A DNA stretch of 34,914 nucleotides from Chthonomonadales bacterium. Its GTDB lineage: Bacteria > Armatimonadota > Chthonomonadetes > Chthonomonadales > CAJBBX01. Within the stretch, counting starts at the first letter, position 1. Every line of letters starts with the position of its first letter. Under the pieces are notes generated by a model. It searched no databases and was not told the origin of the DNA. It saw only the letters and a program-made list of their open reading frames with translations. The position numbers and the translations under genes are program-made. Positions 6,779 to 11,123 of this stretch are shown piece by piece. The stretch lies in contig JABWBA010000031.1 in NCBI GenBank assembly GCA_013360745.1, positions 1-34,914 on the forward strand, read 5' to 3'.

Positions 6779-7912
6779 CTAGCGGATGCCGGCTTCGCCG
6801 AGCGCTTTCATTACAGCCGCCGGGTCGAAGCCCTCACCCTTATAGATCACCTTTCCGTCGCGATCGTACAGGACGTTCGTCGGATACGCCCGGACTTTGA
6901 ACATGCCGACCAGATCGGTCGACGTCTTGTTGAAGCCGACAGGGAACGTGAGGCCGTGGCGTTCGGCCCAGGCCTTTACATCGGCTTTGGACTCGCCGAT
7001 ACCGTTGACCGCGATGATCTCCAGACCGTGATCCTTGAACTTCCGATACAACTCCTCGAGATGCGGAGCCTCCGCATTGCAGGCGCCTCAAGTGGAGAAG
7101 AAGAAGGTAAGGAAGATCATCTTGCCGCGAAGATCCGAAAACCGTATCTGTCGATCATCGTAGGTTCGGACGGTGATCGACGTGGGCACGGAGGGGCTAT
7201 CCGGCGCGGGCAGCGCCGTGAGCTGTCGTGCTCCTTCGGGCAGCTTCACTGCGAACCCATCCGTAGGGAGCGGCTTATCGATCTCGACCGTGCGAACCGT
7301 TTCGACGATCACCGGAGCGCCCTTGCTGAAGAGCGCGACGCGTCGTACGAGATACCGGTCGTTGTCGATATACAGTTTGGCCGAATGATCAGCATCGTAG
7401 TCGAAGCTCAATACCCAGGCGAGCTGGTCGCCGAAGCTTTGAGGGCCGCTCACCTCGGCGCTTCTCATACGGGACGCAAGGTCGTCACGACGATCCTGCC
7501 AGCGGCCTTCAAGAAGGAGTGTGATCACTCTGGAGGCTGGCGTGGGTACGGCAATCCCTTTGAGCGTATCGACCCCGATGAGTTGTCTAGAAGCGGCGGT
7601 TCGAGTGTAGACACTCCGATCCACCCGCAGCGCCGTCAACTGCTTGCCGTCCGACCATACCTCGGTATCGCAATAACTTCCGGTCATCGAAAGCCGGTAC
7701 AGGTTCGGTCGTTTGGCGGCAACGACGACGGAGGCGGAATACTCCTTGTCGCCAGCTTTATGCGTCCAAGCCGACTCGCAGCGAAACGTGCTGGCCGCCC
7801 GATAGTTGGCCGCGGTCTTCATCAAGATGCGCGCCGCGTCGGCGGCCTGCCCATGTGCGAGCGGAGCTGCGACCGTGGTCGCTAACAGAGCGATTATCGA
7901 TCTCAGGTTCAT
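6779..7912 (-). CDS. Secreted thioredoxin/TlpA-like protein with probable selenocysteine (in-frame UGA, UxxC)
   Basis: Reading through one TGA (7088-7090) gives a single 377-residue protein. The start is the ATG at 7912, with AGGAG 6 nt upstream. Residues 1-23 are a signal peptide (hydrophobic core, cleavage near HGQA-AD). Residues about 25-235 resemble the LolA/DUF2092 lipoprotein-carrier-like fold often placed before redoxin domains. From about 250 a TlpA/AhpC-TSA thioredoxin fold follows: IRFSDLRGKMIFLTFFFST, then UGA at codon 275, then GACNAEAPHLEELY. The usual sequence is WCxxC with PHL, so UGA replaces the first catalytic Cys and Cys278 is the second. The fold continues with GLEIIAVNG and the cis-Pro loop AYPTN (Pro344). 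A SECIS-like stem follows the UGA. The role is probably extracytoplasmic thiol-disulfide exchange. The alternatives are a nonsense mutation or sequencing error (TGC to TGA). No sel genes are in the window. Confidence 0.78.
7061..7077 (-). promoter_or_regulatory. SECIS-like hairpin downstream of the in-frame UGA
   Basis: On the minus strand, ten nt after the UGA codon lies a perfect 7-bp stem, AUGCGGA / UCCGCAU, with a GGC loop (or 6 bp with an AGGCU loop). The apical loop begins 16-17 nt past the UGA and has G within its first two positions. Both match the published bacterial SECIS consensus as I remember it. CCU before and AGG after could extend it as a lower stem. It lies inside the coding sequence, as bacterial SECIS elements do. 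Confidence 0.65.
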
Positions 7913-8025
7913 TGGCGCTCCTTTGCTGATATCCATATGCCGTCCGCGAAGCGGCCTCCCGCGCCTCGGCATAGTATCAAGATCTCAGTATAACGCAACC
8001 CTGATCGTTGATGGATCGTTGCTGT

Positions 8026-8685
8026 TCATCCGATACCGAGCCATCGATGCATCAGAAACCACACACGGTCGATCAGAAGCGCCATACGGGCCATGACGGT
8101 CGAACCGAAGATGGCGCCGAACGCGAACATAAGCATTAGGCGGCCGGTTCGGGCGGTGCTCTGGATCACCCTGTTCTTCTGTTCGAATGAGAAGAAGAAG
8201 TAGGTCATCACGGTGATGATGATCACGAGGAACAGGATGTTGTTCAGCGATTGGCCGAGAGGCGTCACCTGAGAGCCGGCCGGAAGCATACTCTGGGTGA
8301 CCCACAGGGGCTTGAACGATCCGCGGATCTGTGGGATGTATAGGTTGGCAGTCGCCTGGAACGCCTGGCCGGCGGCGAAGCCCAGCAGGATCCCGATGGA
8401 GATTCGGCTCATCCAGTTATAGCGTTTTGTGAAGATCGTGTAGAAGAGGAATCCGCCGAACAGAGCAAAGGCCCAGGGCCACTGGCCATCACGGGTCATC
8501 GGAATCCACCACTGCGGCTTCAGGATCTCATGCCACGCGGCCTTGATCGTATAACCGGCGGCGAGGCCGATGAACATGTGCTCGAATAGCCTGTAGAGCC
8601 AGTTCTCTTTGAGGATAAGGGAGAAGAGCGCCAGAGTGCCGATCGCGCCGATCCAGATACCGACTGGATGTGAATATTCGATCAC
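8026..8685 (-). CDS. Uncharacterised polytopic membrane protein (last gene of membrane cluster)
   Basis: 219 residues from a GTG start at 8685. That GTG shares GTGA with the stop of the upstream gene and has GGGAGG about 6 nt ahead of it. An open frame extends further upstream to 8961, but that part overlaps the preceding gene and is not protein-like. About six hydrophobic segments are seen: near 8-24, 34-52, 71-85, 93-110, 149-166 and 183-205. A conserved-looking Trp/Pro-rich loop (KPQWWIPMTRDGQWPW) sits between helices 2 and 3. I do not recognise the family. As the last member of a six-gene overlapping operon it is probably a subunit of the same membrane assembly. Confidence 0.8.
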   Translation of the reverse strand: MIEYSHPVGIWIGAIGTLALFSLILKENWLYRLFEHMFIGLAAGYTIKAAWHEILKPQWWIPMTRDGQWPWAFALFGGFLFYTIFTKRYNWMSRISIGILLGFAAGQAFQATANLYIPQIRGSFKPLWVTQSMLPAGSQVTPLGQSLNNILFLVIIITVMTYFFFSFEQKNRVIQSTARTGRLMLMFAFGAIFGSTVMARMALLIDRVWFLMHRWLGIG

Positions 8686-9518
8686 GCCTTGCCTCCCTGT
8701 CTCCGCGAGGCGAACATCCCGTAGTTGCCCAGGCCGATCAGGACGAAAAGCAGGATCAGTGTCAGCGATACAGGGGTAATCGCTCGAGTGGTGAAACCCT
8801 TGATGCCGAGCATCCGCTCGTACTCCGCCGCGCCCTTGATGCCAAAGAGCATCCCGGCGATCTGGCCGGAGTCGATGTAGGTATATAGCTCGGGCGCCAT
8901 TACAGAAGTCGGCGCATAGCAGAACGGCGCGTCGGTGCTTCCGGCAACAAGGCCCAACCATGAGACGTAGTTGGCGGAAGCCGACACCTCCGCAATAAAG
9001 CCGACATCATCGAAGTTCCGGATACCCTTCATGATCGGGAACTGATGCAGGGGTTTGCGCTCTTTCGTATCTTGCTTTAGAGTCTCTTCGATATTCCGGA
9101 CCATCCCTTTGAGTGTTCCCGCGATATCGGCCCGGAAGCCAAAGTTGATCCAATCTCGTCCGTACTTGTACCCGTACTTCGGGGCGAGTTCATCGGCTAC
9201 TTCGTAAGCCAGGATCGTGGACTGCGGATCACCGAAGGCGATCAACGCGAACTTGAGCTTTCGCCGCATCAAATGCTCGATGATGACCCTCGTCTGCGGG
9301 CGATTTTCCCCCTGGGTGCTCGCGCTCCAGAGTGTCGAGACGATCGCGAGCTTTCTGGGATCGGCCTTCTCGATGGCGTCGTAGACGCCGCGCGCCTGTG
9401 GGCCGACGGCGAGGGGCAATGGGATCGGCACGAGGAGCCCGATGACCACGATGAGGAGGAGTGTCAGATAGAGATATCGGCGATCGATATTCTGAAGGTT
9501 CTCCGCGAAGCTGCTCAT
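8682..9518 (-). CDS. Uncharacterised membrane-anchored protein with extracytoplasmic Rossmann-like domain
   Basis: 278 residues. One N-terminal membrane helix (about 16-38) and one C-terminal helix (about 246-265) flank a roughly 200-residue soluble domain. That domain has alternating hydrophobic strands and helices: KLAIVSTLWSAST, LKFALIAFGDPQST, VSWLGLVAGSTDAPF and QIAGMLFGIKGAAEYE. The pattern recalls an alpha/beta ligand-binding domain facing outward, but I cannot name the family. The ATG overlaps the upstream stop (ATGA) and the TGA overlaps the downstream GTG (GTGA), so translation is coupled on both sides. It is the only cluster member with a large soluble domain and so the likeliest recognition or ligand-binding part. 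That role is inference. Confidence 0.82.
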   Translation of the reverse strand: MSSFAENLQNIDRRYLYLTLLLIVVIGLLVPIPLPLAVGPQARGVYDAIEKADPRKLAIVSTLWSASTQGENRPQTRVIIEHLMRRKLKFALIAFGDPQSTILAYEVADELAPKYGYKYGRDWINFGFRADIAGTLKGMVRNIEETLKQDTKERKPLHQFPIMKGIRNFDDVGFIAEVSASANYVSWLGLVAGSTDAPFCYAPTSVMAPELYTYIDSGQIAGMLFGIKGAAEYERMLGIKGFTTRAITPVSLTLILLFVLIGLGNYGMFASRRQGGKA

Positions 9519-10327
9519 GACTCATCTGCCTTTGCTTCAAAGAATGCGCCTCGTTCCAGCGATAGCCAGAGGCGCAGCGCGATGGCCAGGCCGCCGATAC
9601 CCAGGCCGAAACCGATGGCGCGTGTCGCAGGAGCGTTGACCGTCAGCAGGAGCCAGTTGCTGATGCTGTCTAGGCGAAAGATGGAGGCAAAGGAGCCGTT
9701 CTCCGGTATCCAATGCGTCAGGTACTGGCCGATAGGGATTTGACCCAGCATCACGACCAGGGCTGCGACCATCAACAGCGTAGCCTCGGCTGACTTTATG
9801 CGGAAGGCGCGGTATGCAGCGGAGATGATGAAGAACGCAAGCGTCGCAAACATCGCGGCGTCGAAGCTGTTGAGGACATCCCGGAAAAGCGAGCGGAAGA
9901 AGAGCGTATTCTCGAACCGGATGCCAGCGACAGCCATTACCACAATGGAGATCAACAGGACCGCGCTGTTAGGCCATCCTTCCCGTTGCTTTACCACTTT
10001 GCCCGTGTGGATCCGGACCAGACTGAATACCCCGAGCCCAAGAGTGAACGCGGCGAGAACGTTGATGACATTGCCGACCGTTGGCACCGCAAACGTCAGG
10101 AAGTTCTCGTCGGTGCCTTTTCGCACCGGCCAGAAGAACTCAAGAGCATAAAAGAGGCCGGCCAGAAACGTCAGGCTCGCGATTAACGCCTTGCGGGCAC
10201 GTCCCGGCAGGCTCTGAAGCACGAAGAAGAGGACTACGCTGCACGCGATCACGAGGAGCGGTGCGATCCAGATCATCGACCCTTTGGCTGCAGGGAAGGC
10301 GCTGATGAGGAACTTCTGCAGGTTCAT
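9515..10327 (-). CDS. Uncharacterised polytopic membrane protein
   Basis: 270 residues from the ATG at 10327. The open frame continues upstream to 10405, but that part overlaps the DUF6754-like gene. About seven hydrophobic segments are visible: near 15-37, 45-63, 80-103, 122-139, 158-176, 184-201 and 238-258. Charges are concentrated in the short loops, and there is no obvious catalytic motif. GGAAGG lies about 12 nt before the ATG. The start is 16 nt after the DUF6754-like stop, and the stop overlaps the next ATG by 4 nt. I do not recognise the family. It is presumably a structural or channel subunit of the cluster. Confidence 0.8.
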   Translation of the reverse strand: MNLQKFLISAFPAAKGSMIWIAPLLVIACSVVLFFVLQSLPGRARKALIASLTFLAGLFYALEFFWPVRKGTDENFLTFAVPTVGNVINVLAAFTLGLGVFSLVRIHTGKVVKQREGWPNSAVLLISIVVMAVAGIRFENTLFFRSLFRDVLNSFDAAMFATLAFFIISAAYRAFRIKSAEATLLMVAALVVMLGQIPIGQYLTHWIPENGSFASIFRLDSISNWLLLTVNAPATRAIGFGLGIGGLAIALRLWLSLERGAFFEAKADES

Positions 10328-10343
10328 ACCCTGATCCGCCTTC

Positions 10344-11123
10344 CTACAACGTGAACCATTGAATGAAGAACCATTTCGCGCCGAGGGCGGGAATGGACAT
10401 TGCAATCGTTCCGATCAAGACAACGAGCAGAATGATGATCTTGCAGTAATCCTGGCCCACAAGGCTGCCGAGTAGAGTGGGCTCGCGGGAGATATAGGCG
10501 CTCGCGGCATAGTATTCATCACCGATGATCGTATAGTCGCAGGAGGCGATGAAGAACGGCAGCTGGGTTGTCGATACGGTTCCGGCGACCTGGATCGCGC
10601 CGACCTGCTGTCCCGCTTCCGCGAAGATCAGCGATTCCGCGAAGAAGTCACCGAAGAGAAAACTCGCCGCTACCTTCTCCCTGAAGATCGTTCCGGCCAC
10701 GCCGGAGGCGAAGGCGAACTGGCGATCCGATAGGAAGTAGACGGAGTTCGGATCGTAATCCTCTGGCTTGCCGGCTGCCGTGTAGGAATCCCGCACGACT
10801 TCCTCCGCGACCGTATACAGAGCGGAATCGGCAGTCGGCATGATTAAACGATTGCCGAACTGAGCAGCGGTCTTGATGATATAGCTGAAGATCGTCAGAG
10901 CCTGCAGCCCGACAACGCCGAGGCCGCTCAGTCCAGGAACCATCAGGATCGGACGGCCCATCTCGGTAGCGCGCCCTACTGCTTCGTCGATGGCGTTGAG
11001 ACCGGGTATCCGCCGAACGAAATACTTGCGCCCACGTTGCGCGGTCACGATCGTAAGCAGAACGATGGCGCTCAGGAGGGCGATCAGGATCGCGGACTCC
11101 CAGCGATCGCTGGCGTGAATCAC
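10344..11123 (-). CDS. DUF6754-like membrane protein
   Basis: 259 residues with hydrophobic ends (about 9-28 and 231-250) and a long, highly patterned middle. Signature-like stretches are GRPILMVPGLSGLGVVGLQ, LIMPTADSALYTVAEEVV, YFLSDRQFAFASGVAG and LPFFIASCDYTIIGDEYYA. These match my memory of the uncharacterised DUF6754 family, but the assignment rests on pattern recognition only. The ATG overlaps the upstream small gene (ATGA). The density of small residues and the repeated AxG/GxG patterns suggest packed membrane helices and an oligomer. The function is unknown. It is the most conserved-looking member of the six-gene cluster and the best search anchor for it. Confidence 0.8.
   Translation of the reverse strand: MIHASDRWESAILIALLSAIVLLTIVTAQRGRKYFVRRIPGLNAIDEAVGRATEMGRPILMVPGLSGLGVVGLQALTIFSYIIKTAAQFGNRLIMPTADSALYTVAEEVVRDSYTAAGKPEDYDPNSVYFLSDRQFAFASGVAGTIFREKVAASFLFGDFFAESLIFAEAGQQVGAIQVAGTVSTTQLPFFIASCDYTIIGDEYYAASAYISREPTLLGSLVGQDYCKIIILLVVLIGTIAMSIPALGAKWFFIQWFTL

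Follow-up and report, generated by a model that had tools for sequence, protein, structure and literature searches.

Selenoproteins of the TlpA/redoxin/Prx-like group that carry a UxxC motif are known (PF00578, PF08534 and cd02966 entries, PMC13188914; Prx-like UXXC proteins, PMC1088965). The candidate examined here lies in the same thioredoxin-fold superfamily, with selenocysteine (Sec) predicted at the first position of UxxC and a SECIS element just past the UGA. It appears to differ from them in having a DUF2092/LolA-fold domain fused to the N-terminal side of the redoxin. The review PMC13188914 mentions neither DUF2092 nor LolA.

The two halves of the protein each resemble a well-known system. 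DUF2092 has previously been tied to LolA (PMC4520260), the outer membrane lipoprotein carrier, and the N-terminal domain matches both PF09865 and LolA folds. LolA is a stand-alone carrier, whereas the LolA-like domain described here, known from sequence and a structure model, is fused to a redoxin. The C-terminal domain has the predicted fold of ResA (1st9). ResA has a CxxC motif and no LolA-like domain, whereas the present protein has UxxC together with the LolA-like domain. Among NCBIfam families, NF041054 (ResA-like WAxxUGC selenoprotein; 31.1 bits against a cut-off of 300) and NF053656 (TUGYCR redoxin; 18.7 bits against a cut-off of 100) are Sec redoxins with weak similarity and different motifs. 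No NCBIfam model covered the protein above its cut-off.

The literature searched, which left most subscription journals outside its scope, described no selenoprotein with DUF2092 or LolA and no selenoprotein from Armatimonadota. A UxxC redoxin with Sec is a known kind of protein, and its fusion to a LolA-like domain may be unreported. This agrees with the initial annotation, in which a LolA-like plus UxxC redoxin architecture was not known to have been described. The locus would add a LolA-domain selenoprotein, and with its relatives a phylum-wide set of Sec redoxins, for Armatimonadota.

Gene layout and predicted domains

The window, meaning the whole stretch of 34,914 nucleotides that was analysed, is one complete contig of a 3.32 Mb assembly with 127 contigs and 97% completeness, from a bacterium placed in the order Chthonomonadales of Armatimonadota. 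On the minus strand, the frame from 7912 to 6779 contains 377 codons followed by TAG, and its sole interruption is the TGA at 7088-7090. The LolA/DUF2092-like and TlpA-like halves thus share one frame parted by one TGA, as first proposed. The following features were assigned.

6779..7912, minus strand: predicted selenoprotein coding sequence, ATG at 7912 to TAG at 6779-6781, 377 residues including U275 when TGA is translated as U; orthologues have the same extent
7918..7923, minus strand: Shine-Dalgarno-like AAGGAG ahead of the ATG at 7912, recognized from sequence
7844..7912, minus strand: putative signal peptide, residues 1-23 (MNLRSIIALLATTVAAPLAHGQA), assigned by sequence pattern; pLDDT is below 50 there
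7220..7837, minus strand: DUF2092/LolA-fold domain, residues 26-231 (Pfam PF09865, 9.3e-14; LolA by Foldseek)
6782..7180, minus strand: ResA/TlpA-like redoxin domain, residues 245-377 (Pfam PF00578, 2.1e-19; ResA 1st9)
7088..7090, minus strand: in-frame UGA, predicted Sec275 at the first catalytic position, from translation and orthologue alignment
7079..7081, minus strand: Cys278, second residue of UxxC, invariant in the orthologue alignment
7061..7077, minus strand: candidate SECIS hairpin of 7 bp with loop GGC, beginning 10 nt past the UGA

The translation around the UGA reads LTFFFST-U-GAC-NAEAPHLEELY, which places U275 at the first position of the active site U275-G-A-C278 and Cys278 at the second, where the initial annotation had put them. 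The motifs it listed as intact (FSDLRGK, PHL and AYPTN) were all found. Its warning that a naive caller would split the gene also holds, since the list of open reading frames gives 7088-7972 and 6779-7051. Standard annotation would divide this gene in two.

The DUF2092 match scored 51.8 bits against a gathering threshold of 21.2, and the AhpC-TSA (PF00578) match, covering residues 246-357, was also above its cut-off. The structure model had an overall pLDDT of 84.6. Its N-terminal half resembled LolA (Foldseek 8v1k, 4ki3 and 1iwl; E about 1e-10). The C-terminal half resembled ResA 1st9 (Z 19.5, rmsd 2.0 over 130 residues, 30% identity). LolA-like and ResA-like folds are therefore predicted for the two halves. 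The N-terminus looked like a signal peptide when judged by eye, and the protein is predicted to be exported.

Directly upstream of the gene lie membrane-protein ORFs with DUF6754 (8026-11123, minus strand). In G003, G007 and G010 they show strong conservation and synteny, and in G002 they do so in part, over the 1.5 kb of flank read. The gene is preceded by these membrane-protein genes in its family relatives as well, with DUF6754 among them where the stretch retrieved reached far enough.

The UGA codon and the downstream hairpin

The gene almost certainly decodes the UGA at 7088-7090 as Sec, which would make it a true selenoprotein gene with a canonical bacterial SECIS; this judgement draws on sequence comparisons. 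The earlier suggestion of a probable selenoprotein is supported by the Sec machinery of the genome, the Cys column in orthologues, the TGA-bearing relatives and a hairpin that is Sec-specific and covarying. Mechanistically, SelB-bound Sec-tRNA(Sec), steered by the hairpin 10 nt downstream, would read the UGA as Sec.

A Cys had been expected at the UGA column in homologues. The syntenic orthologues carry TGT (G007), TGC (G010 and G002) or again TGA (G003) at this codon. Compared with its two closest Cys orthologues, the protein was 63% and 61% identical past the UGA, against 51% for the LolA-like half, and the nucleotide differences fell mostly at codon position 3. Persisting purifying selection on the protein is indicated downstream of the UGA.

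The comparison covered 43 TGA-bearing relatives, one of them the window gene itself, and about forty relatives with Cys. TGA stood precisely at the column of residue 275 in 42/43 of the former. The one case with a TGA off the Cys column was L127, from G035.

These comparisons bear on whether the UGA is an accident, arising from faulty sequencing or assembly or from a nonsense mutation that marks the onset of a pseudogene. The window represents one genome, and one substitution (TGC to TGA) would turn the Cys form into the UGA form. An accident is nevertheless highly improbable given the recurrence of TGA at the same codon in the relatives, the complete hairpin in the window gene, and the Sec machinery in the same genome. 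Conservation of the protein past the UGA equals or exceeds that of the part preceding it, in line with the initial view that decay was unlikely. A base-calling error at 7088-7090 in particular appears very unlikely because relatives in other genomes bear both TGA and the covarying hairpin.

The hairpin has the sequence ATGCGGA-GGC-TCCGCAT (7077-7061, minus strand). The bacterial SECIS model of PMC13188914 describes a loop of 3-9 nt with G in the first two loop positions, a stem of 4-16 bp, 16-37 nt from the UGA to the loop and an MFE of -7.5 or lower. With its GGC loop, 7 bp stem, 17 nt to the loop and -14.2 kcal/mol, the window hairpin fits this model. The energy of the single sequence is unremarkable (z -0.43), and the hairpin is considered significant because of comparative data, namely Sec-specificity, excess stems and covariation, and not because of energy alone. 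Folding energy of the whole segment against synonymous-codon shuffles was uninformative (fraction 0.25 for the window gene). No SECIS family of Rfam reached its gathering score in the window.

Sec genes share the geometry of 7 bp, a 3-nt loop mostly starting with G, and a start 10 nt past the UGA. At least 6/7 pairs form in 39/42 Sec genes vs 3/40 Cys genes, counts that are not independent because the genes are related. A raw p value from these counts therefore exaggerates their independence. Well-supported branches of the domain tree provided just five independent Sec/Cys contrasts; nearly all went in the expected direction, with a median p of 0.0625.

Perfect stems were compared with an expectation in which amino acids were fixed and codons were drawn from each gene's own usage. 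The Sec set contained 33 perfect stems vs 0.12 expected, while in the Cys set none were expected and none were observed. Compensating changes occurred at 4/7 pairs, with 44 double-change cells vs 17.3 in shuffles (0/500). The covariation signal was lost when the partner was shifted by 1-3 bases. The SECIS-like stem at the expected spacing, first noted in the one sequence, is thereby recognized as specific to Sec genes and covarying.

TGA-bearing redoxins with the same hairpin (L107-L146) are widespread in the phylum, with several per genome in some, for example G050, G025 and G036.

Selenocysteine machinery and UGA use

All four genes of the Sec pathway, for which a search had been proposed, were found in the genome of the window (G000). 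SelB scored 277.5 bits, together with a match to its C-terminal part, above the cut-off. The tRNA-Sec (selC) scored 71.6 bits and has the anticodon TCA. SelD scored 342 bits and has an in-frame TGA in its own active site, followed after 8 nt by a 7-bp stem with loop GCC. SelA is split into two pieces at contig ends (C108:2-673 and C2:3-209), its middle part being unassembled. The assembly is fragmented, and the machinery sits on contigs other than that of the window. The same selD/tRNA-Sec arrangement was seen in G002 and G003, which argues against contamination as the source of the machinery.

At least three genes of G000 (the window gene, selD and a gene on C45) have a read-through UGA, a pattern that would also arise if UGA had been reassigned genome-wide, for example to Trp. 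Reassignment has a vanishingly small probability, however. TGA is the normal stop of pheS, pheT, a xer-type recombinase gene and others in the window, the read-through TGAs fall at Cys columns rather than Trp columns, and both tRNA-Sec and selB are present.

The gene on C45 is a second Sec redoxin (C45:3009-4241, equivalent to L187:610-1842), with the UGA at C45:3888 and the motif HWUTFC. Its N-terminal half is unlike that of the window gene. Its hairpin, AGCGGGG-GTA-CCCCGCT, also begins 10 nt after the UGA. The redoxin-specific SECIS model, whose only confident match in the genome was the window gene, missed it, and it was recovered by the Pfam search. Two molybdopterin oxidoreductases of G000 were considered as Sec formate dehydrogenases and rejected, as neither had a stop within the match.

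Across 61 genomes, among the matches listed, selB was found above the cut-off in 17/18 genomes with a TGA-bearing match vs 22/43 others (Fisher p 0.0009). Leaving out G035, whose TGA lies off the Cys column, the count among the matches listed was 16/17 (p 0.0016). The exception, G050, has TGA genes and no selB above the cut-off. The lack of selB is likely an assembly gap, because a selD fragment with TGA lies at a contig end in this genome.

Proposed function and variation at the Sec site

The product is predicted to be exported, with a LolA fold (DUF2092) at its N-terminus followed by a ResA/TlpA-like redoxin whose active site reads U-G-A-C. It is probably a thiol:disulfide reductase outside the cytoplasmic membrane, although we infer the redox direction. 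Sec275 would attack a substrate disulfide outside the cytoplasm, and Cys278 would resolve the mixed selenenylsulfide. The redoxin could then be re-reduced by a putative membrane thiol donor of the CcdA/DsbD-like type. The LolA-like domain probably keeps the substrate, or some other hydrophobic partner, close to the active site.

The redoxin might instead be a peroxidase or small-molecule reductase rather than a protein-disulfide reductase. AhpC/TSA and weak GPx-type profile matches, and GPX4 structures among the fold matches, point in this direction. The UxxC motif speaks against it, and the match to ResA (Z 19.5) is stronger than that to GPx (Z about 16). Glu281, which is invariant in the orthologue alignment, corresponds by position to Glu80 of ResA. 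We therefore regard a peroxidase or small-molecule reductase as unlikely, and disulfide reduction is favoured.

Since the whole LolA-like domain precedes the UGA, Sec decoding could be accompanied by a second product. Deliberate partial termination at the UGA would free an exported LolA-like domain of 274 residues, with selenium supply setting the ratio. For E. coli, a recoding efficiency of just 30-40% is reported (PMC4513850). If true, Sec decoding would serve as a selenium switch: with selenium the cell would export the LolA-like carrier together with its fused redoxin, and without it just the carrier domain. Against this, there is no sign of the short form being stable or selected, and the Cys orthologues, in the same gene order, make the full-length form only. 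Such a regulated short product is very doubtful.

Within the family, tRNA-Sec, selB and selD were all above cut-off in G000, G002, G003 and G004. Family genomes without the three above cut-off have Cys (G007, G010 and G001) or Ser at the site. G002 has kept the Sec machinery, yet has Cys at the site. Orthologues with Sec, with Cys or with no active-site Cys, in genomes with or without the Sec trait, form a natural series for asking what an exported redoxin gains from selenium.

The orthologues with Ser come from another genus (G006, G009 and G011). In these Ser-Glu-Gly-Ser replaces CxxC, so that both active-site cysteines are lost. The SEGS orthologues (L014, L015 and L016) are about 600 residues long, with the DUF2092/LolA-like domain doubled and a redoxin fold without redox residues.
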